The position numbers and the translations under genes are program-made. From the NCBI RefSeq assembly GCF_031624495.1, contig NZ_JAMQOP010000001.1, positions 806,001 to 870,000 on the forward strand: a stretch of 64,000 nt of DNA, in the 5' to 3' direction. The DNA is from Halogeometricum sp. S1BR25-6 (GTDB taxonomy: Archaea > Halobacteriota > Halobacteria > Halobacteriales > Haloferacaceae). The notes under the pieces were generated by a model that was not told the origin of the DNA, made no database searches, and saw only the letters and a program-made list of their open reading frames with translations. This document shows, piece by piece, positions 2,162 through 26,784 of this stretch. Within the stretch, counting starts at the first letter, position 1; each line of letters starts with the position of its first letter.

Positions 2162-2667
2162 CGGCGGCCGTCACTCCGTCCCCCCGTCGTGTCGTCGCGT
2201 CGTCGCTACCAACCGTTCTCCGAACTCGTCCTCGACCCGTTTCGACGACGCCGACAGTTCACCGTCCGACTGACCGTCGGACCGGCGCGACCGCCGCCGA
2301 GACTCCATCATACTCGTCTATTATACTACCTCTTTGGTGTGGATTCTAAACCGTATCTCTCCGAGACTCCGCGACAATTCATTTCAACCCTGTAGGATAG
2401 AATAATAACTCCATCCGAGCGCTCGTTTGAGGGATTCGCATATCTCGGCTCCCAGCCACCTATTTGTCAACCGAATCTCTTATTAACTATCCATGTATGG
2501 CCTCGAACCGTAATGAAGTGTAAGAATAGAAAGTCTGAAGCGAAAGTCGTGAAGGGACGGCACTCGGAACCGGGCGGTCGGTGGACGAACCGGCACGTCT
2601 CGGCCGATTCGCGTCCGGTTCGGTCGGCCACGGTCGGACGTGCGGGCGCCGACGGGCGGACCGGGGG
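2162..2667. other. Long intergenic region with A+T-rich promoter-like blocks
   Basis: About 500 bases between nasA and the transporter gene, long for this gene-dense window. I see no convincing ORF or RNA gene. A+T-rich patches stand out near 2318-2335, 2395-2412 and 2478-2492; TATTAACTAT at 2481-2490 is TATA-like on the plus strand. The transporter therefore probably has its own promoter and a long leader rather than reading through from nasA. Confidence 0.5.
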
Positions 2668-3993
2668 GTGTCGGAAGTGAACAGTCCGATCAAGATGACG
2701 AAGTACCGGACGCTGCTGCTCGCAACCGTCGGATTCAACTTCTCGTTTCTCATCTGGTTCTCCTTCGCGCCGTTCACCGGTCCGATGGCCGACGAGTTCG
2801 GTCTCTCGCTCGCGGAGATCGGAATCCTCGCCAGCGCGGCCATCTGGCTCGCGCCGTTCGGCCGCATCCTGACCGGGTGGCTCTCCGACAAGTTCGGCGC
2901 GCCGACGGTGTTCGCCATCGTGTTGGGCTACGTCGGCGTCTTCTCGATGGCCTCGGCGTTCGCCCAGTCGTACGCGGTGTTCTTCGTCGAACGCCTCATC
3001 GTCGCCACGGCGGGCATCACGTTCGTCATCGGCATCCAGCACGTCTCCGAGTGGTTCGAGGAGGGGGAACTCGGCACCGCCGAGGGCGTCTACGCCGGCA
3101 TCGGCAACGCCGGCGCCGCGGGCGGCGCGCTCATCCTCCCGCGCGTGTTCGGGTCGGGGTGGAACGGGCCGCTGTTCTCGACGAACTGGCGCGCCGCGTT
3201 CTTCTACACCGGCGTCGTCTCCATCGTTCTCGCCGTCGTCTACTACGTCTTCGGCGAGGCGGCCAAGAGCGACGCCAAACGGCAGGCGACGAAGGACAGC
3301 GCGAGCTTCAGGGGCTGGTTCTTCACGGCCACGCGGTACGGCACCGTGGTACTCGCGCTGGCGTACGTGATGACGTTCGGCCTCGAACTGTCGATGAACG
3401 GCTGGCTCGCGACCTACTACCGCGAGGGGTTCAACACGGACAACCTCGTCCTCGCGAGCACGTTCGCGGCCACGTTCTCCGTCGCCGCCGGCCTGCTCCG
3501 CCCCATCGGCGGCTACGTCAGCGACGTGCTCGCGCGGCGAGAGCAGGACATCCTGCCCGTCTTCCAGGGACGCTACCGCGAGCAGTGGACGTTCGTGACC
3601 CTGTGTTTCGTCGTGCTGGCGATGTTCGGGATGACCGCCGCGGGTCTCACCGGACAGGTCCTGCTAGCCGTCGGCGCCGGCTTCCTCGTCGGCACGGCCT
3701 GCGCGCTGGCCGAGGGCTCCATCTTCGCGCAGGTGCCGTCGATGTTCCCCAACAGTTCCGGCGCCGTCGCGGGCGTCGTCGGCGGCATCGGCACCGTCGG
3801 CGGTATCGTCTACCCCCTCGTCTACGCCGCGCCGTACCTGCCGAACCTCCACACCGGCTACTCCGTCGTCGCGGTGTCGATGGTGCCCATCGTGCTCCTG
3901 ACGGCGTGGGTGTTCCAACCGAAAATCGCGAGCGTGGCCAACGAGGCCGGGTTCGTCGGGCAGGGGGAGACGACGGTGACCTCCGACGACTGA
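2668..3993 (+). CDS. narK: NarK-type nitrate/nitrite MFS transporter
   Basis: 441 aa from a GTG start at 2668; an internal ATG at 2695 is an alternative, and an upstream in-frame extension to 2581 is basic and looks non-coding. About twelve hydrophobic segments are seen. MFS motif-A-like stretches occur in both halves ([13 protein letters not shown] and [14 protein letters not shown]). The Gly/Asn-rich stretch AGIGNAGA corresponds to the nitrate signature of the NNP family. It would import nitrate (or exchange nitrite) across the membrane for NasA, 506 bases upstream. A sugar- or drug-MFS is unlikely given the signature and neighbour. Confidence 0.88.
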
Positions 3994-18509: not shown

Positions 18510-19604
18510 CTACTCGAACACCGCGTCGAACGCGCGGGCGCCGAGCGGTTCGAAGGTGCCGGCGGCGACGTTCTCCGCGACGTGTTCGGGCGAACCGGTG
18601 CCGACGAGGGCGCTCGTGACGCCCGGCGCGCTCCGCGCGAAGTTGAGCGCCCGTTGTGCGGGCGTCTCCCCCGAGAGCTGACCGTCCACCGCCGCGGGAA
18701 TCGACTCGGCGAGCGCGCCCTGCGAGAGGCTGGCGCTGGCGAACGCGTCGAGTCCGCTCTCGTGGACGTACCGGAGCGCGCTCACGTCCCCTTCTTCGTC
18801 GGGGTGGCGGTGCGCCTCGACGGTGAACGCGTCGGCCATCCGCACGTTGAACGGGAGTTGGACGGCCGCGAACCCGCAGTCGTCCGCGCCCGCGGACTCG
18901 GCGGCGCGTTCGGCCCGCGCGAGGACCTCGGGCAAGGAGAGGTAGCTGTCGTGCCCGCGCGGGACGCGGAACGCCTCCCACGTCGCCACGCCGTAGACGC
19001 CCAACTCGCCCGCGAGGCGACGCTCCTCCAGCGTCTCGAACGCCGCCTCCAACTGGTCGTACACCTCCTCTCTCGAACGCTCCGTCAACTGCGTCTCGGG
19101 GTTGTGGACGTAGTAGCAGTCGATGGCGTCCACCCGAAGGTTCTCCAGCGAGCGGTCGAACATCGCGTCCAGAAAGCCCGGAGCGATGCAGTGGCTCCCG
19201 CGGGCCAAGTCGTCGGTGTCGACCAGTCCCGACCGGACGAACTCGTCGCGGACGTACGCGCCGGGGTCGTCGGGCCGCGACCCGTCGAACGGCACGAACC
19301 CGCCCTTCGTCGCCACGACCACCTCCTCGCGGGAGACGTCCGCCGATTCGAGGGCGTCGCCGACGGCGCGTTCGCTGCGCTGACAGCGGTAGTTTATCGC
19401 CGTATCGAGGAGGTTGACTCCCGATTCGAGCGCCTCGACCATCGCCTCGCGGTAGCGCGCGTCGGCGTCGTCCGTCGGGTCGCCGAGATAGGTGCCGACG
19501 CCGATGCTTGAGACGACGCCCGGACCGAACCGACGGAAGTACGTCCGCGCGAACGCGTCGCCGAATCGGTCGCGATACCCCCACGTACCGGATGTCGTCG
19601 CCAT
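18510..19604 (-). CDS. Aldo/keto reductase
   Basis: 364 aa NAD(P)H-dependent oxidoreductase with a TIM barrel. The catalytic tetrad is visible: D67 and Y72 (LLDTAINYR), K100 (VVVATKGG) and H167 (CYYVHNPE). It is similar to the L-galactose dehydrogenase/Tas-like branch in having a shifted barrel start (GVVSSIGVGTYLGDPTD). The substrate is unknown. Convergent with the small zinc-finger gene; its start lies 42 bases from the DHH gene end. Confidence 0.9.
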   Translation of the reverse strand: MATTSGTWGYRDRFGDAFARTYFRRFGPGVVSSIGVGTYLGDPTDDADARYREAMVEALESGVNLLDTAINYRCQRSERAVGDALESADVSREEVVVATKGGFVPFDGSRPDDPGAYVRDEFVRSGLVDTDDLARGSHCIAPGFLDAMFDRSLENLRVDAIDCYYVHNPETQLTERSREEVYDQLEAAFETLEERRLAGELGVYGVATWEAFRVPRGHDSYLSLPEVLARAERAAESAGADDCGFAAVQLPFNVRMADAFTVEAHRHPDEEGDVSALRYVHESGLDAFASASLSQGALAESIPAAVDGQLSGETPAQRALNFARSAPGVTSALVGTGSPEHVAENVAAGTFEPLGARAFDAVFE

Positions 19605-19646: not shown

Positions 19647-20837
19647 TTACACGTCGCCGGACATCGCCTCGAACAGGCGCTCACACAGTTTCCGCCGGGG
19701 GAGCGCGTCGCCGCCATCGGTGAGGATGCGGCCGTCGCGTTGAGGAATCTGCCCGCCGCCCATGCGGGCGTGGCCGCCGGCGGAAGCGCCGGGGACGTTG
19801 TCGAGGGCGTGTTCGAGCGTCCGGCCCATGTGGACCCGGTCGTCGCGCGAGCGACCCGACAGAAAGAGCGTGCCGTCGCGTTCGCCGCAGACGACGACGG
19901 CGGTGACCCCCTCCAACTGGATGAGTTCGTCCGCCGCCTGCGGGATGGCGTCGACGTTCGACAGCGTGCCGACGTCGCTGACGGCGAACGGCCCGCGCAC
20001 GTCGCGCCCGGCGATGGCGCGCGCCTTCAGTTCCAGCACCTCCTTGGACACCTCCGGGTTGGCCACCCGGTTGAGCACGTCCTCGTCGACGCCGGGGTAG
20101 AGGTAGCCCGCGGCGGAGAAATCGTTCGCCGAACAGCCCGCGGTGAGCCGCTTCGTGTCGGTGAGGATGCCGTAGAGCAGGCCCGTCGCGACCATCGAAG
20201 GGACGGTGTACTCCGAGCCGACTTCGCTGGCGTGGCGGTCCGGCGGGACCGGCTTCGCGCCGACGTCGCGGAAGTACTCCGCGACGATGCTCGAACAGGC
20301 GCCGTAGTCGGTCCGCACGTCGGTGAACCGCTCGCCCGTCCCCTCGCCGGGGTGGTGGTCGACGACGGCGAACGGAACGAGGCCGTCGGCGCCGGCGAAT
20401 CCGCGCGGACGGTTGTGGTCGACGAGGACGACGTCCGTGGCCGCGAGATCCGTGACGTGGTCGATTACCTCCAGGTCGAGGTCCAACACCGTCTCGAACG
20501 CCCGGTTCTCTTGGTGACGTATCTGGCCGGTGTACTGGATGCGCGCGGTCACGCCGACCTGTTCGGCCAGGCAGGCGACGCCGATGGCCGCCGCCATCGC
20601 GTCGGGGTCCGGGTTGGGGTGCATCAGCACTGCCACCTCGTCCAGTTCCGACAGTCGCTCCAGAAAGCGGGTCCCCGTCGGACGCTTGAAGTGCAGGATC
20701 GCGTACAGACCGCCGCCCAGCGCCACCGCGGCGACGACGACAGCCACGACTAGCCCCGGGTGGTCCGCGAGGACGGATCGGGCCCCACCCACCACCTGCG
20801 CGACCCCCGTCGCGCCGACGGCTGCCCTCGACTCCAT
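19647..20837 (-). CDS. Membrane-anchored DHH-DHHA1 phosphoesterase
   Basis: 396 aa. One transmembrane helix (about residues 28-49) precedes a DHH domain with metal ligands in HPNPDPDA (residues 73-80), VLVDHN (D140, H141) and the signature DHH at 160-162. The C-terminal DHHA1-like part ends in GGHARMGGGQI, the GGGH-type substrate loop. Related enzymes include RecJ-like nucleases, NrnA and cyclic-di-AMP phosphodiesterases (GdpP/DhhP). Membrane anchoring with no nucleic-acid-binding domain makes nanoRNA or cyclic-dinucleotide cleavage plausible. Confidence 0.88.
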   Translation of the reverse strand: MESRAAVGATGVAQVVGGARSVLADHPGLVVAVVVAAVALGGGLYAILHFKRPTGTRFLERLSELDEVAVLMHPNPDPDAMAAAIGVACLAEQVGVTARIQYTGQIRHQENRAFETVLDLDLEVIDHVTDLAATDVVLVDHNRPRGFAGADGLVPFAVVDHHPGEGTGERFTDVRTDYGACSSIVAEYFRDVGAKPVPPDRHASEVGSEYTVPSMVATGLLYGILTDTKRLTAGCSANDFSAAGYLYPGVDEDVLNRVANPEVSKEVLELKARAIAGRDVRGPFAVSDVGTLSNVDAIPQAADELIQLEGVTAVVVCGERDGTLFLSGRSRDDRVHMGRTLEHALDNVPGASAGGHARMGGGQIPQRDGRILTDGGDALPRRKLCERLFEAMSGDV

Positions 20838-20917: not shown

Positions 20918-21826
20918 CTATCCTGCGCCGTCGGCGGCGCGGTAGTCGGCTATCGCGGCACGATAGCCCTCCCGGAAGGTGGGGTAAGCGAACTCGTAGC
21001 CGAGTTCCCGGAGGCGGTCGTTCGAGCACCGCTTGCTCGTCAGGACGCGCCGCCGCGCCGCCTCCGAGAGGTCGCCGTCGGCTAGGCGTTCCTCCTTGGT
21101 TCGCTTGTCCGGCCGGGCGACGCCGCACTCGTCGGCTAACCAGTCGGCGAACGCCCACTTGTCGGCGGGTTCGTCGTCGACGACGAGGAGCGTGTCCGTC
21201 CCGCGGGCGCTCTCGTCCGAGAGGAGAAAGCGGACGGCACCGGCGGCGTCGTCGCGGTGGACCATGTTGAGATAGCCCGCCGTGACCGGACCGGAGAGGT
21301 AGCGGTCGAGGCGGTAGCGGTCCGGACCGTACAGACCCGCGAATCGCGCGACTGTGCCGTCGATGCCCGCCTCGGCGGCCCCCTCGACGGCGACCCGTTC
21401 GGCCTCGGCGAGGACGCGCGTCTTGTCGGTAGTCGGGTCCAGCGGCGTCTCCTCGTCGACCCACTCACCCCCGTGGTCGCCGTAGACGCCCGTCGAAGAG
21501 GTGTAGACGAGTCGCTCCGGCGGCGAGTCGCGGTCTCCGTACTCCGCTACGACGTTCCGCAGACCGTCGACGTAGACCCGCTGGGCGGCGTCGGCGCCGC
21601 GGCCGCCCGAACTCGCGGCGAACACGACCCAGTCCGCGTCCGGGAGCGAGGACACGGAGTCGGGGTCCGTCGCGTCGGCGCGCACCGGGTTGAGCCCCGC
21701 CGATTCAACCGCCGCGAGGCCGTCGTCGGACCGGCGAACGCCCGTCACGTCGTGGCCGTCGCTCGCCAGTTGGCGACCGAGTTCGAGGCCGACGTAGCCG
21801 CACCCGACGATGACTGCGCGGGCCAT
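20918..21826 (-). CDS. NAD-dependent epimerase/dehydratase-like SDR protein (YeeZ-like)
   Basis: 302 aa extended-type SDR. It starts with the dinucleotide motif VIVGCGYVGLELG (residues 5-17) and has an active-site-like YTSSTGVYG segment. The classical YxxxK is not evident, as in atypical SDRs of the YeeZ group. The role is unknown; sugar-nucleotide or redox sensing is possible. The gene for the DUF5791-like protein ends 1 base upstream, so the two are one operon. Confidence 0.8.
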   Translation of the reverse strand: MARAVIVGCGYVGLELGRQLASDGHDVTGVRRSDDGLAAVESAGLNPVRADATDPDSVSSLPDADWVVFAASSGGRGADAAQRVYVDGLRNVVAEYGDRDSPPERLVYTSSTGVYGDHGGEWVDEETPLDPTTDKTRVLAEAERVAVEGAAEAGIDGTVARFAGLYGPDRYRLDRYLSGPVTAGYLNMVHRDDAAGAVRFLLSDESARGTDTLLVVDDEPADKWAFADWLADECGVARPDKRTKEERLADGDLSEAARRRVLTSKRCSNDRLRELGYEFAYPTFREGYRAAIADYRAADGAG

Positions 21827-22258
21827 CTACCGGTCGTTCCGCTCGGCGATGTAGCCGTGGATGGCCGCCAACTGTTCGAGCGTCATCGCGTTCCGGCCCT
21901 CGAGCGCCTGCTGTATCTCCTGTCCGGAGAGACCGAGGTCGACGTTCGAGGCGATGGTGTCCACGTCGAGGACGCCCGTCGTCATCCCGAGGAGGAGGTG
22001 GTCGCGGAGTTCGAGCACGATGGCCTCCTGATCGGGGTACTCCTCCGAAAGCGCCAACAGCGCGGCCGCGTCCTCGACGCGCATGTCGGGCGCGGGGCCG
22101 TCGGCGACGGCGGCGACCTGTTCCTCGTCGACGTCGGCGTCCGCCGCCGCCGCCTCGACGCCGACCGAGTCGACGACGGTCCGAATCTGCGCCTCGTAGG
22201 CTTCTCGCAACTTCGCCGGCGAAAGCGACGCCGGGTCGTCGGCCGCGTCGTAGAGCAT
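21827..22258 (-). CDS. DUF5791-like haloarchaeal protein
   Basis: 143 aa, all-helical and acidic, no cysteine, no membrane segment. It starts MLYDAADDPASLSPAKLREAY and ends in NAMTLEQLAAIHGYIAERND. The repeating helix pattern resembles a small helical bundle. I recall it as DUF5791; function unknown. Its stop codon abuts the start codon of the epimerase gene (no intervening base), suggesting coupled translation. Confidence 0.75.
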   Translation of the reverse strand: MLYDAADDPASLSPAKLREAYEAQIRTVVDSVGVEAAAADADVDEEQVAAVADGPAPDMRVEDAAALLALSEEYPDQEAIVLELRDHLLLGMTTGVLDVDTIASNVDLGLSGQEIQQALEGRNAMTLEQLAAIHGYIAERNDR

Positions 22259-22316
22259 ACTCCCACTCGCCGCGCCTCGGGCAAAACGGTTTCCGTCGCC
22301 TCCGTCGCCAACCGAA

Positions 22317-25300
22317 TCACTCCCGCGGGCACCGTCCCGTCGGCGTGTCGCACCGCGGTCCCGGCGCCGACCCGGCCCACGCCGGGGACGCCTCGAACGC
22401 GTCGCCGTCGACGTCGCCGACGCCGTTGCCGGCGGGCGGGACGACGGCGACGACGACCGTCCGCACCTCGAACCCGATTCGCTCGTTCGACCCGACGACC
22501 TCCCGCGTTCCGTCGCCGTCGACGTCCAGTCGGACGACCGAGCCGTCGCGGACGTACGTCGTCGGGACGGCGCCCCCGCCCGCCGAGACGGCGAAGCGGG
22601 CGTACGCGCCGCGGGCCTCAACGACCCAGAGGTTCGCCGTGGCGACCCACGGGTTCAGCGTCGGCGACAGCGGAAGCCCCGCGGGCACCGACCCGAGCGT
22701 GCCGTTCAGGACGCGGTCGGTCAGGCGGTCGGCGCCGCGGGACGCCGCTTCGTTCGTCAGTTCCGTCGCGAGCGTCCGCGTTCGGGAGGCGGTGCCGTTC
22801 ACGGCCGCTTCCGGGACGCGAACCCCCGGAGCGGTCGTCGCCTCGCGCAACTCGACTCTGAGCGCCGTGGCGAGTCGGTCCCGCGTCGAGTCACTCTCGA
22901 CGCTGACCTCGGACGCGACGGCGGCCGCGAGCGACCCGTTCGACGCGGCGACGGCGCGTGCTCCCGGTCCCCGCCACCGAGCGAGGGCGACGTCCACCGC
23001 CTCGGCGCTCTCGGCGGGCGTCATCGCCGTTTCGCGCCGGACCGCGATTGCGGCCCGCAATCGGACCGTGACGAGCGAGCGGTCCACCTCCTCCGCGAGC
23101 GCGTCGCGTCGGTCACGGAGCGTCGCGTCCTCGCGGGCCGCGAGCGTCCGGTCGGCGGCGACGAGCGCCCGGCCGGCCGTGCGGAGCGACACCCGAGTCC
23201 CGCCGAAGACCCTGCCGACGACCGAGTCCGCGAGGTCGCCGTACGGGAGGGTGAACAGGTTGGTATTCCGGGCCGCCAGCGGCGTGTAGGCGGTTCCGTC
23301 CGCGACGCCGTCCACCGCCGCGCCGTCGACGCCGGACAGCGAGAGGTACGCCGGGTCGCCGTCGGGGACGAACGCGTCGTGGTCGGCGGCGGCGACGGCG
23401 TCTACAGTACCCGAGTCGTCCTCGGCCGCGCGACTGGCGAGCGCCCCCCTCACCGCGTCCGCGTCCACGTTGCGGGAGGCGAGCGCACCCCGCAGTCGGT
23501 CGTTCCGCCCGTCGGCCGCCGCGGCGCGTTCGTCCAGCGCCGCGAGGACGCGGTCGACGTACGCCGCGCGCGCCGCGACGCGGACCCGGTCGGCGACGCC
23601 GTCGTACTCGGCCGGCGCGTCCACCAGGTCCGTCCGTCGGTCGCGGACGGCCGCCGCGAGTTCGGCCGCCGCGTTGGCGTGACCGGTCGCCGCGTCCCGC
23701 GCCGCAACCTCGACCGAGACGTTTCTGACGCGTTCGCGAAGCCCGGCCACGTCCAGATACACCCACTCGCGGAGGGATTCGGGACGCTCGCCGACGTGGG
23801 TCGTCGACGCCGCGGCGCTCCCGCCGGCCGTCCCTCCGCCGGAGAGCGCGGCGCGCCGGGCGACGGCGTCCGCACCGCCGCGGTCCGCGAGTACGCCGCC
23901 CGCCGCCCGCGGGACCGACGCGAGGTTCGGTCCGGAGAGGGCGCCGCCGCGGTCGAACAGCGGCGTCACCGACCGCTCGGGACCCGGAAGCGAGCGGAGC
24001 GACGCGACGACGGCGACGCGGACGCGGTAGTCGTCCGTCCAGCGTCCCGTTGTCGTTCGTCTGGTTCCGTTGCGCACCCACGTCCGCGAGACGGTGTGAC
24101 GCACAAGAACCCGCCGAGCGGTCGTCTCGAAGGCGCGTTCGCCGACGCCGACGGTCCGCGGAGCGGCGGGCGTCTCGGCGGCGTGTACCGACACCGCGGT
24201 GTCGACGTTCTCGTCGACGAGCGTCCATGCCCCCGCCGAGTCGCTCGAACCGAAAGACGCCGACAGCGGGTCGGGAGCCGGCTTCTGTCCTTCGTCGGCG
24301 TCCGTCACCGTCGAGATGACTGTTACGTCCGCGGTGTAGCCGTCTCGACTGAGCGCGGCGAGCGTCGGCGCGTCGTCCCCGTCCTCGCTTCCGAGTAGCG
24401 CGAGAAACGCGTCGTCCGCGGTTCCGCCGACGTCCGCGGGGAACGTCTGCGTCGACAGCGGCTGGTGTGTCCGGGGGTTCGGACGCGGCGCGGCGCCGAC
24501 GAGTCGCTCTGCCGTCTGCCCCCCGACGACGGACGGAAGCGCGTCGGAGAGTCCGGTTCGAAGCGTCGCCGCGCGGACGCCGCGAGCGGCGTCGGGGTCC
24601 GTTCGTCCGAACGAGGCGCGCTGTGCGGCGAGGACGCCGGCGTTCGTCGAGAGCGCCACGTGGCGATTCGCGACGACGTTGTCGACGGGCGCGCCGGCGT
24701 GCTGGGCGAGGCCGCGCGCCTCCGCGACGGCGAGCAGTCCGGCCGTCGCCCGGCGCTTCAGGCCGGGCGCGTACACCGGCGAGCGGTTCAGTCGCCGCTG
24801 GAAGTCCGCCGTCCGGTCGTGGAGCGCGAGTGTCGGCACCGCGACGGTCACGCGCCGGGAGACGGTCCGCTCGGCGACGACACGGCCATCTCGCACGGCG
24901 ACGAGCGAGACGTTCCGAACCGTCGCCGTCAGCGACCGGCCGCCGTCCGCCGGAGACACGGAGACGTCGCGCAACGCCGGTCCGACCCCGGCCTCCGAAA
25001 CCGCCGGAAGCGACGCCCGCGCCGTCGCGTCTCCGCGCCGGTGTTCCACGGTCGATAGCGCGCCGCGGGCCGACAGCGCGATTCTGAGCCGGAGGTAGTT
25101 TCGGAAGGTCCGGTTCTCACCGAGGGCGCGGCCGACCGTCGTGTTCGCGGGCGTCGTCACCGGGTCGGCGGCGGCCGCTCTCGCCGCCTCGCGGACCGCC
25201 ACTCTGAGCGCGGCGGTCGTCTCGGCGTCGACGCGGTCCATCGCGACGTCGACCGAATCGTCCACGACGCCGGCCTCAGGGGAAGCGAGCGACGCCGCGA

Positions 25301-25379
25301 ACGTCGAACTCCCGACGAGGAGCAGCACGCCGACGAGGGCGAACGGGACTCGCGCTCGCTCGTCGTCCGCCAGACGCAT
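22317..25379 (-). CDS. Very large exported protein of the pilus-like locus (DUF7286-type)
   Basis: 1020 aa. A single N-terminal hydrophobic helix (VPFALVGVLLLVGSSTFAASL, residues ~12-32) follows a short charged stretch. The remainder is Ala/Arg/Asp/Val-rich, extracellular-looking, with numerous N-x-S/T sequons. A YVRDGSVVRLDVDGDGTREV segment near the C terminus contains a D-rich DVDGDGT calcium-like loop. I recall this as a haloarchaeal family linked to type II/IV secretion loci (possibly DUF7286). Last gene of a four-gene operon; its ATG overlaps the upstream stop (TGATG). It could be the tip or cargo of the pilus. Confidence 0.78.
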   Translation of the reverse strand: MRLADDERARVPFALVGVLLLVGSSTFAASLASPEAGVVDDSVDVAMDRVDAETTAALRVAVREAARAAAADPVTTPANTTVGRALGENRTFRNYLRLRIALSARGALSTVEHRRGDATARASLPAVSEAGVGPALRDVSVSPADGGRSLTATVRNVSLVAVRDGRVVAERTVSRRVTVAVPTLALHDRTADFQRRLNRSPVYAPGLKRRATAGLLAVAEARGLAQHAGAPVDNVVANRHVALSTNAGVLAAQRASFGRTDPDAARGVRAATLRTGLSDALPSVVGGQTAERLVGAAPRPNPRTHQPLSTQTFPADVGGTADDAFLALLGSEDGDDAPTLAALSRDGYTADVTVISTVTDADEGQKPAPDPLSASFGSSDSAGAWTLVDENVDTAVSVHAAETPAAPRTVGVGERAFETTARRVLVRHTVSRTWVRNGTRRTTTGRWTDDYRVRVAVVASLRSLPGPERSVTPLFDRGGALSGPNLASVPRAAGGVLADRGGADAVARRAALSGGGTAGGSAAASTTHVGERPESLREWVYLDVAGLRERVRNVSVEVAARDAATGHANAAAELAAAVRDRRTDLVDAPAEYDGVADRVRVAARAAYVDRVLAALDERAAAADGRNDRLRGALASRNVDADAVRGALASRAAEDDSGTVDAVAAADHDAFVPDGDPAYLSLSGVDGAAVDGVADGTAYTPLAARNTNLFTLPYGDLADSVVGRVFGGTRVSLRTAGRALVAADRTLAAREDATLRDRRDALAEEVDRSLVTVRLRAAIAVRRETAMTPAESAEAVDVALARWRGPGARAVAASNGSLAAAVASEVSVESDSTRDRLATALRVELREATTAPGVRVPEAAVNGTASRTRTLATELTNEAASRGADRLTDRVLNGTLGSVPAGLPLSPTLNPWVATANLWVVEARGAYARFAVSAGGGAVPTTYVRDGSVVRLDVDGDGTREVVGSNERIGFEVRTVVVAVVPPAGNGVGDVDGDAFEASPAWAGSAPGPRCDTPTGRCPRE

Positions 25380-26314
25380 CAGCGACCGTCCTCCGTCGTT
25401 CGCCCGCCGTCCGTCACGTCGTCTCCGCCGTCGCCGTTCCACGCGCGGACGACGATTCGCACCTCGGAGACGGAGACGGCGGCCGCGGCCGCCTCGGGCG
25501 AGTCGTAGCGCCCTCGAAGGTCGGACTCGACGCGGGGGGCGAGGGTGGACGCGAAGCGCCGGTTCGCCGTCCGCGTGTCCGCGTCGCCGACGGCGTCGGC
25601 GGTATCGGTCGCCGAGACGCCCAGTTCTGCGGCGAGGCGGGCGTAGCGGTACCGCGCGAACGTCGAGACTGGGGCGTCGTCGCGGAGCGCAAGCCGCATC
25701 CGACCGGCCGGCGCCAGCACGTCGACGGTGCGGTTCGCGACGGCGTCCGACAGCGACGCGAAGTCGCGCGTCTCGCGCGGAGAGAGCGGTTCCGCCCCCG
25801 TCGGGACGGTGAGCGTCGCCGCGTCGACGGCTTCGCCCTCGGGGGGAGCGCCCCCGACGGCGACGCGGCCCTCGACCGGCGCGTCGGGGTACGGCCGCCA
25901 GACGGCGTCGATTCGGAGACCGACGGTCGATAGTTCGCTCCGGACGGCGCCGCGGACGGCCGCCCGCAGGCCGTCCCGCGCGTTCGTAACGGGGGCGCCG
26001 TCGAAACCGGCCGTCCCGACGGCGACTCTGGCGAGGAGGCCGGCGAACGATCCGCGCGTCGTCCGCTCGAACTCCGGGCCGGCCGTGCGCTCGAAGCGGA
26101 CGCCTTTCTCGAAGCCGTTCGCCCGACGCGCCCCCGGCGCGAGCGAGTAGTTCACCGTGGCGGTGCTCGTCGCGAGGACGGCGGCGACGGCGTCCGGGCG
26201 GTCCGCACCCTCGTCCACCGCGTCCGCGGACGTTCCGACGTCGGCGGCGGTGACGCCGAGGACGGCGGCGCCGAGGAGGAGGAAGAACACCGCGGCGTCG
26301 ACGGCGGCGTTCAC
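25379..26314 (-). CDS. Exported pilus-locus protein with N-terminal membrane helix (DUF7284-type)
   Basis: 311 aa from a GTG overlapping the upstream stop (GTGA). The mature-like N terminus begins directly with NAAVDAAVFFLLLGAAVLGVT, a TadE/pilin-like hydrophobic helix, followed by an acidic, Ala/Thr-rich ectodomain with a conserved-looking YSLAPGARR and RYARLAAELGVS. A second GTG at 26320 is an alternative start. Together with its neighbours it probably forms a minor pseudopilin set exported by the PilB/PilC machine. Confidence 0.72.
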   Translation of the reverse strand: MNAAVDAAVFFLLLGAAVLGVTAADVGTSADAVDEGADRPDAVAAVLATSTATVNYSLAPGARRANGFEKGVRFERTAGPEFERTTRGSFAGLLARVAVGTAGFDGAPVTNARDGLRAAVRGAVRSELSTVGLRIDAVWRPYPDAPVEGRVAVGGAPPEGEAVDAATLTVPTGAEPLSPRETRDFASLSDAVANRTVDVLAPAGRMRLALRDDAPVSTFARYRYARLAAELGVSATDTADAVGDADTRTANRRFASTLAPRVESDLRGRYDSPEAAAAAVSVSEVRIVVRAWNGDGGDDVTDGGRTTEDGR

Positions 26315-26784
26315 GACCACACCGCCACCGAGAGCCGTCCGGGTTCGACGCGGCCGGGAGCGAGTCGGACGCTGACGAGGCGACCGGCGCGGTCGACGCG
26401 GTTCGTGCGGTCCGCTGCGTCCGACGAGTCCCCGGGAACGGCGGGACCGACGCCCCACTCGCGGCCGTCCGCTGCGAGCGAGACGTTGAGTCGGCGCCCG
26501 GCGGGGCCGCGGTCGCGGGCCTCGGCGAGTCGTGCGGGAGCGACCACGCCGCCGTCGCTCGCCGCATCCGCGACGCGGTCCAGCGTCGGACCGGCCGTGC
26601 TCCGTTCGTCGACGACTGGCACCGCGCCGGCGAGGACGGTCGCGTAGAGACTCACGCCGGCGCAGACGGCGAAGAGGGCCGCGAGGGCGGCGACGGGCGA
26701 CGCCTGCGCGCGGGTTCCCTCGCCGCTCGCGTCGGACGCCGTTCCCCGCTCGGTCGACGGTTCACGCGTCGACGAGGACGACAT
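26311..26784 (-). CDS. Pilin-like protein (DUF7285-type)
   Basis: 157 aa. After ~25 Ser/Thr-rich residues comes RAQASPVAALAALFAV, the archaeal pilin-type signal and hydrophobic helix (compare R-x-Q-x-SPV in haloarchaeal pilins cleaved by PibD), then an ectodomain with a beta-rich end (LVSVRLAPGRVEPGRLSVAVWS). The start lies 23 bases inside the preceding gene. It is a likely structural or minor subunit of the pilus-like system. Confidence 0.78.
   Translation of the reverse strand: MSSSSTREPSTERGTASDASGEGTRAQASPVAALAALFAVCAGVSLYATVLAGAVPVVDERSTAGPTLDRVADAASDGGVVAPARLAEARDRGPAGRRLNVSLAADGREWGVGPAVPGDSSDAADRTNRVDRAGRLVSVRLAPGRVEPGRLSVAVWS

Follow-up and report, generated by a model that had tools for sequence, protein, structure and literature searches.

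A membrane-anchored DHH-DHHA1 protein of Halogeometricum as a candidate cyclic di-AMP phosphodiesterase

Introduction

GdpP, a known c-di-AMP phosphodiesterase, is attached to the membrane at its N terminus and carries a PAS domain and a degenerate GGDEF domain in addition to its DHH-DHHA1 catalytic part. The GdpP of Mycoplasma bovis lacks PAS, has an N-terminal transmembrane part, and keeps a GGDEF-like motif; activity on both c-di-AMP and pApA is reported for it (PMC10720645). DhhP, NrnA, and Pde2 are stand-alone DHH-DHHA1 proteins without a membrane part. The RecJ-like enzyme of Deinococcus radiodurans is reported to prefer pApA over c-di-AMP and to bind metal through H34, D38, D40, D95, H121, and D171, with H122 holding phosphate (PMC11229311). 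The archaeal pApase of Pyrococcus yayanosii, whose DHH-DHHA1 sequence carries a GGGH motif, is reported to be specific for pAp, inactive on c-di-AMP and pApA, and encoded in a sulfate-assimilation cluster (PMC8268124).

The haloarchaeon Haloferax volcanii is reported to contain c-di-AMP together with little pApA (PMC8646023) and to have a dacZ gene that could be neither deleted nor overexpressed (PMC6741144). Two papers of 2021 state that the c-di-AMP-degrading enzyme was not yet identified (PMC8305020, PMC8646023), and one of them lists HVO_0756, HVO_0990, and HVO_1690 as predicted c-di-AMP phosphodiesterases, naming He et al. 2020 as the source (PMC8305020). HVO_0990 and HVO_1690 are up under hypochlorite in a proteome study (PMC10294847). 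The literature that we searched yielded no experimental test of any of the three as a c-di-AMP hydrolase. Here, we compare with these systems a DHH-DHHA1 protein of Halogeometricum sp. S1BR25-6, encoded in the analyzed 64,000-nucleotide stretch of contig NZ_JAMQOP010000001.1 (the window), and we follow its relatives across the phylum.

Results

Gene, anchor, and active site

The gene lies on the minus strand of the window, with the following features and neighbors:

19647 to 20837, minus strand: gene of the DHH-DHHA1 protein, 396 aa, ATG start (ORF list, translation)
20694 to 20750, minus strand: membrane helix, residues 30-48 (hydropathy)
20250 to 20639, minus strand: DHH domain, residues 67-196 (Pfam PF01368)
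20601 to 20621, minus strand: motif I, HPNPDPD, residues 73-79, with inferred metal ligands H73, D77, and D79 (alignment)
20352 to 20360, minus strand: DHH motif, residues 160-162 (translation, alignment)
20157 to 20159, minus strand: D227, motif IV position, inferred metal ligand (alignment)
19743 to 19994, minus strand: DHHA1 domain, residues 282-365 (Pfam PF02272)
19770 to 19778, minus strand: GGH of the AGGH motif, residues 354-356 (alignment)
20918 to 21826, minus strand: NAD-dependent epimerase/SDR-like gene, upstream (Pfam)
21827 to 22621, minus strand: ORF ending in DUF5791, annotated start provisional (Pfam)
18510 to 19604, minus strand: aldo/keto reductase gene, downstream (ORF list, Pfam)

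Both domains score above the Pfam gathering threshold (DHH, E 2.9e-9; DHHA1, E 3.4e-10). Only 66 residues precede the DHH domain, and no other Pfam family, PAS and GGDEF included, matches the protein at E <= 0.01, so that its architecture appears reduced relative to GdpP. DHHA2, DHH_CID, and TrkA_N are likewise absent by Pfam, and the membrane helix stands in the place of TrkA_N. Among NCBIfam models, those for pyrophosphatases alone match, far below their cut-offs (E 4.2e-10, 39.6 bits against a cut-off of 283). A pyrophosphatase identity was rejected on this score and because the second domain is DHHA1 rather than DHHA2; a RecJ/GAN identity was rejected because DHH_CID, present in the paralog L006, is lacking. 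Long ORFs in other frames overlap 19647-20837, as is usual in GC-rich DNA. That the gene is not a chance reading frame follows from relatives at E <= 1e-10 in 39 of 40 related genomes (the membrane form, E <= 4.7e-91, in 31 of the 40) and from a mean column identity of 66% in a 14-row ortholog alignment. Among the best 80 of 297 loci, the closest named ortholog belongs to Halogeometricum pallidum (94%), which agrees with the haloarchaeal origin assumed in the original prediction.

The N-terminal part holds a single strongly hydrophobic stretch at residues 30-48 (mean Kyte-Doolittle value 2.51). We parsed 104 sequences, 77 from the 80 named loci (the best 80 of 297) and 27 from 30 others, a set in which some genomes are counted twice. 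By hydropathy, a hydrophobic stretch precedes motif I in all 104; in 103 of them, the C-terminal flank of the helix has the more positive net charge (mean +4.1 after versus -1.6 before). Named loci L041, L077, and L084 and, among the 30 others, orthologs L011, L013, and L022 failed the motif pattern and were left out; the latter three, read by another route, retain the residues of the motifs, preceded in frame by a hydrophobic stretch. By the positive-inside rule, the more positive flank of a membrane helix lies in the cytoplasm, and the flanking charges thus suggest that the catalytic part is cytoplasmic.

All DHH-family ligand positions are present (H73, D77, D79, D140, D160-H161-H162, and D227) and, together with G354-G355-H356, are invariant across the 14-ortholog alignment. 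By motif, they would correspond residue to residue to the metal ligands given for the D. radiodurans RecJ-like enzyme and to its phosphate-holding H122 (PMC11229311). The C-terminal motif reads AGGH (residues 353-356); AGGH is found in 21 and GGGH in 6 of the 27 parsed sequences, the protein under study included. The original prediction of a membrane-anchored DHH-DHHA1 protein at 19647-20837, with one transmembrane helix, intact DHH ligands, and neither PAS nor GGDEF, is therefore borne out by Pfam, hydropathy, and alignment; the GGGH-like end that it described holds for GGH (354-356) but not for the first residue, which is A.

The SDR stop and the start of the DHH gene are 80 bp apart, and 42 bp separate the DHH stop from the start of the aldo/keto reductase gene, spacings that suggest co-transcription of the three. 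No promoter was found in a scan for the sigma-70 type, a consensus unsuited to archaea. We surveyed the best 80 of 297 loci over up to 5 kb on each side, some being cut by contig ends; the fetched stretch includes the SDR gene in 74 of the 80 named loci, DUF5791 in 72, and the aldo/keto reductase in 48. A long ORF (22317-26567) lies upstream of the DUF5791 gene, and part of it is present in 55 of the same 80 loci; farther neighbors are presumably 'nudix', 'MFS', 'glycT', and 'F420oxid'. The three neighbors scanned (SDR, DUF5791, and aldo/keto reductase) show no cyclic-nucleotide link by Pfam, and the neighboring genes point to no substrate.

Nearest relatives by sequence and by fold

A search of PDB chains with the single sequence placed GdpP catalytic domains first (1.7e-8, 1.8e-8), followed by a longer c-di-AMP phosphodiesterase chain, 9n0l (4.4e-6). 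When a 14-ortholog profile was searched against all PDB sequences, GdpP catalytic domains were again at the top (E 3.8e-13, 6.2e-13, and 2.5e-9); apart from these, E <= 1e-5 was reached solely by four Mn-pyrophosphatase sequences, in the DHH part alone, and neither NrnA/DhhP/Pde2 nor TM1595 of Thermotoga maritima was found at that threshold. The solved GdpP catalytic domain is 22-25% identical to the protein. Both are attached to the membrane at the N terminus (here by hydropathy), and both have a DHH-DHHA1 catalytic part with the metal-ligand positions; unlike GdpP, the protein described here is archaeal, is without PAS and the degenerate GGDEF, and has one strongly hydrophobic stretch in its short N-terminal part. 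M. bovis GdpP shares the lack of PAS and the N-terminal membrane part and differs in being bacterial and in its GGDEF-like motif (PMC10720645).

An AlphaFold2 model (mean pLDDT 85.4, pTM 0.65) was compared with solved structures. Foldseek placed GdpP first (E 2.5e-23) and TM1595 next (3.6e-20), followed by DhhP, RecJ-like, and NrnA entries, whereas VIA-align returned a tie of TM1595 (the top match, Z 24.4), GdpP (23.8), and the Bacteroides fragilis nanoRNase (23.4). DhhP/NrnA/Pde2 and TM1595 share the fold, but their alignment begins near residue 50 and is confined to the DHH-DHHA1 part, and DhhP, NrnA, and Pde2 have no counterpart of the conserved membrane helix. The P. yayanosii pApase is absent among the 50 VIA-align entries listed, which has no bearing either way. 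Because the GdpP, TM1595, and nanoRNase families tie in VIA-align, fold cannot settle the substrate and was rejected as a guide to it. Sequence comparison thus favors GdpP, and fold gives no preference.

The subfamily and its TrkA_N-bearing members

Six DHH proteins are encoded in the genome at E <= 0.1. By Pfam, L001 is a DHHA2 pyrophosphatase and L006 is of the DHH_CID RecJ type; four are members of one subfamily, namely the protein described here, L002 and L003 (both TrkA_N-DHH-DHHA1), and L004 (DHH-DHHA1 alone). A protein with two CBS domain stretches is encoded directly downstream of the L002 paralog (L002 2561-3397). Next to L004 (973-1986), an AsnC-type regulator is encoded (2298-3050) that carries a TrkA_C (RCK_C) domain; in bacteria, this domain binds c-di-AMP. 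A general pairing of the soluble paralog with such a regulator was not upheld at L132 of Haloferax marinum, the single further copy read, whose neighbors were assessed visually in the ORF list.

Across the phylum, where up to six first-look candidates were scored per genome in a profile search, the subfamily is found at E <= 1e-20 in 275 of 295 genomes, and the best E in every one of these 275 is at most 1.8e-62. The membrane form, recognized by a best E < 1e-100, is present in 57 of the 72 genomes sampled from its own order and in none of the 223 other genomes, many of which we take to be methanogens; scoring all candidates in 5 of the 15 genomes without it (G009, G026, G027, G033, and G036) gave the same result. 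Every one of the 72 genomes of the order has at least two other subfamily members, which among the copies read commonly carry TrkA_N.

TrkA_N is present in 9 of 10 further subfamily copies scanned, comprising 7 of 7 from outside the order (E 2.4e-19 or better) and the Haloferax copies L125 and L130. Its presence in every copy of haloarchaeal TrkA_N form 1 was not upheld, as L158 is without it at E <= 0.001. The TrkA_N-DHH-DHHA1 proteins, which occur in haloarchaea and in other genomes of the phylum, carry TrkA_N where the protein described here has its membrane helix, and their catalytic parts are 33-43% identical to its own. In a midpoint-rooted tree of 42 catalytic parts, built without an outgroup, the 14 membrane-form rows make up one group (100/100), as do haloarchaeal TrkA_N form 1 (100/97) and a DHF form (100/100).

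The DHF form, an HVO_1690-like branch, carries DHF in place of DHH in all six paralog copies read (L003, L128, L129, L130, L131, and L133); L003 lies at about 1,861-1,863 kb of G000:C1. All six also have E at the D227 position. Because 5 of 14 copies outside the order and both soluble copies share this E, only the F is distinctive. The DHF paralog may be a sensor or an altered enzyme.

Haloferax equivalents

Four of five Haloferax genomes have three subfamily members, and H. marinum has four. A single contig of H. massiliensis carries them at 1,364, 1,136, and 436 kb, with gaps of 228 and 700 kb; the gaps are 246 and 702 kb in H. marinum. H. mucosum and H. denitrificans have a first gap of 226 kb, their third member being on a different contig. 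The third member lies 23-42 kb from DAC in 4 of 4 genomes. The locus tags HVO_0756, HVO_0990, and HVO_1690 are separated by 234 and 700, and HVO_1690 is 30 tags from dacZ (HVO_1660). Because the kilobase gaps and the DAC distance in these genomes, all other than H. volcanii, match the HVO tag spacing, the membrane form, which sits at the place expected of HVO_0756 by gene order and spacing, is most likely its equivalent.

Co-occurrence with diadenylate cyclase

The genome encodes DacZ (DACZ_N plus DAC). Directly after dacZ is an MscS-type channel gene (L007 623-2295), a pairing also described for HVO_1660/HVO_1659 of H. volcanii (PMC6741144). A second, small DAC-domain protein (214 aa; L008 1141-1785, G000:C5), encoded on another contig, has a partial DAC match (E 6.9e-8) and an RHMSA motif and could be a second cyclase or a pseudo-cyclase.

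DAC was found in 272 of the 295 genomes of the phylum. Both DAC and the subfamily are present in 269 genomes, the subfamily only in 6, DAC only in 3, and neither in 17 (Fisher p 6e-20, with genomes treated as independent, ignoring kinship). Joint absence covers all 12 genomes sampled from family f32 and, in genus g71, five of seven genomes, the remaining two having both; it amounts to about two independent events. All candidates were scored on recheck in the 20 genomes without a subfamily match; in relaxed searches of the 17 genomes with neither, subfamily matches were absent or no better than 4.4e-10, and no DAC was found at E <= 1.

Seven of the nine discordant genomes (G059, G064, G118, G132, G193, and G243 without DAC; G050, G083, and G239 without the subfamily) are drafts of 91-96% completeness. 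The single-contig genomes G064 (99% complete; subfamily but no DAC) and G050 (97% complete; DAC but no subfamily match) weigh against a strict cyclase link. DAC is present in 72 of 72 haloarchaeal genomes, 15 of which lack the membrane form; the membrane form therefore cannot be the sole hydrolase, and the cyclase link argues for the subfamily, not for the membrane form alone. What is new here is the use of this co-occurrence as evidence for a c-di-AMP role.

Discussion

We propose, with a probability of roughly 55%, that the protein is a phosphodiesterase anchored in the membrane and serves to lower haloarchaeal c-di-AMP levels. This assignment is supported by GdpP as the nearest match in the PDB profile search, by the invariant ligands, and by the co-occurrence with the cyclase. 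Two metal ions, probably Mn2+, would be held by H73, D77, D79, D140, H161, and D227; a metal-activated water would attack the phosphodiester bond of c-di-AMP while H162 and the AGGH/arginine motifs of DHHA1 hold the phosphates; the products would be pApA and perhaps AMP. Through the anchor, c-di-AMP would be broken down at the membrane, the site of K+ and osmolyte channels. The protein would share this task with other, partly redundant hydrolases, its sister forms bearing TrkA_N instead of the anchor. A rival hydrolase of the PgpH type (7TM-HD) has no match in the genome at E <= 0.001; the genome does hold 15 matches to PF01663 (AtaC superfamily), proteins that may, by family, be candidate rival c-di-AMP hydrolases.

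The original prediction of a candidate c-di-AMP or nanoRNA phosphodiesterase in a DacZ-bearing haloarchaeon stands as far as the anchor, the intact active site, DacZ in the genome, GdpP catalytic domains as nearest by sequence, and a subfamily that tracks the cyclase are concerned, although fold and motifs do not separate c-di-AMP, pApA, and nanoRNA. Its c-di-AMP idea is supported in part but is not new, as this function is already in print as a prediction for HVO_0756, the likely Haloferax equivalent (PMC8305020). Nor is the protein the only candidate, as the genome has three more members of the subfamily, two of them fused to TrkA_N.

After a c-di-AMP phosphodiesterase, we rank a hydrolase of pApA and nanoRNA next, possible though rather doubtful: a membrane counterpart of bacterial NrnA/Pde2 that cleaves pApA and RNA of 2-5 nt to mononucleotides and c-di-AMP little, and that could be the second step of the same c-di-AMP pathway. 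The fold is about as close to NrnA-type structures (Z 20.6-23.4) as to GdpP (23.6-24.4) in VIA-align, and of the six DHH proteins found, the only ones considered, the four subfamily members alone are left for short-RNA recycling. The reported pApA preference of the D. radiodurans enzyme points the same way (PMC11229311). The profile search speaks for GdpP instead, which reaches 1e-13 where NrnA/DhhP have no match at E <= 1e-5, and joint absence with the cyclase is unexpected for general RNA recycling, yet it fits a dedicated pApA hydrolase.

The c-di-AMP assignment is weakened by the P. yayanosii pApase, a protein of this scaffold reported to lack activity on c-di-AMP (PMC8268124). That an archaeal GGGH-motif DHH-DHHA1 enzyme is pAp-specific also lends something to a pAp phosphatase of sulfur assimilation or CoA metabolism, which we nevertheless hold to be very improbable: the neighbors here are epimerase/SDR, DUF5791, and aldo/keto reductase genes rather than a sulfate-assimilation cluster, and such a function gives no reason for the cyclase co-occurrence. 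Another substrate (pyrophosphate, longer nucleic acid, or another cyclic nucleotide), or a co-occurrence that reflects shared lineage history only, is unlikely. The NCBIfam match of the DHH half to Mn-pyrophosphatases would fit the former and the count of some two independent joint absences the latter; the order DHH then DHHA1, with DHHA2 confined to the separate pyrophosphatase L001, and the lack of DHH_CID argue against another substrate.

A broader and tentative picture, less probable than the enzymatic assignment itself, is that archaea have a dedicated family for c-di-AMP turnover, with a GdpP-like core and an ancestral TrkA_N (NAD-binding, K+-channel-type) regulator. In haloarchaea, this family would have split into a membrane-anchored hydrolase, a TrkA_N-fused hydrolase, and a TrkA_N-fused copy whose active site is altered (DHF) and that may sense c-di-AMP, so that destruction and sensing are divided among paralogs. 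The co-occurrence tells which subfamily to test, and the protein and its paralogs make the question of the degrading enzyme directly testable in a genetically tractable archaeon. If the assignment is true, archaea would gain a c-di-AMP hydrolase whose family history is tied to TrkA_N, a K+-transport domain.
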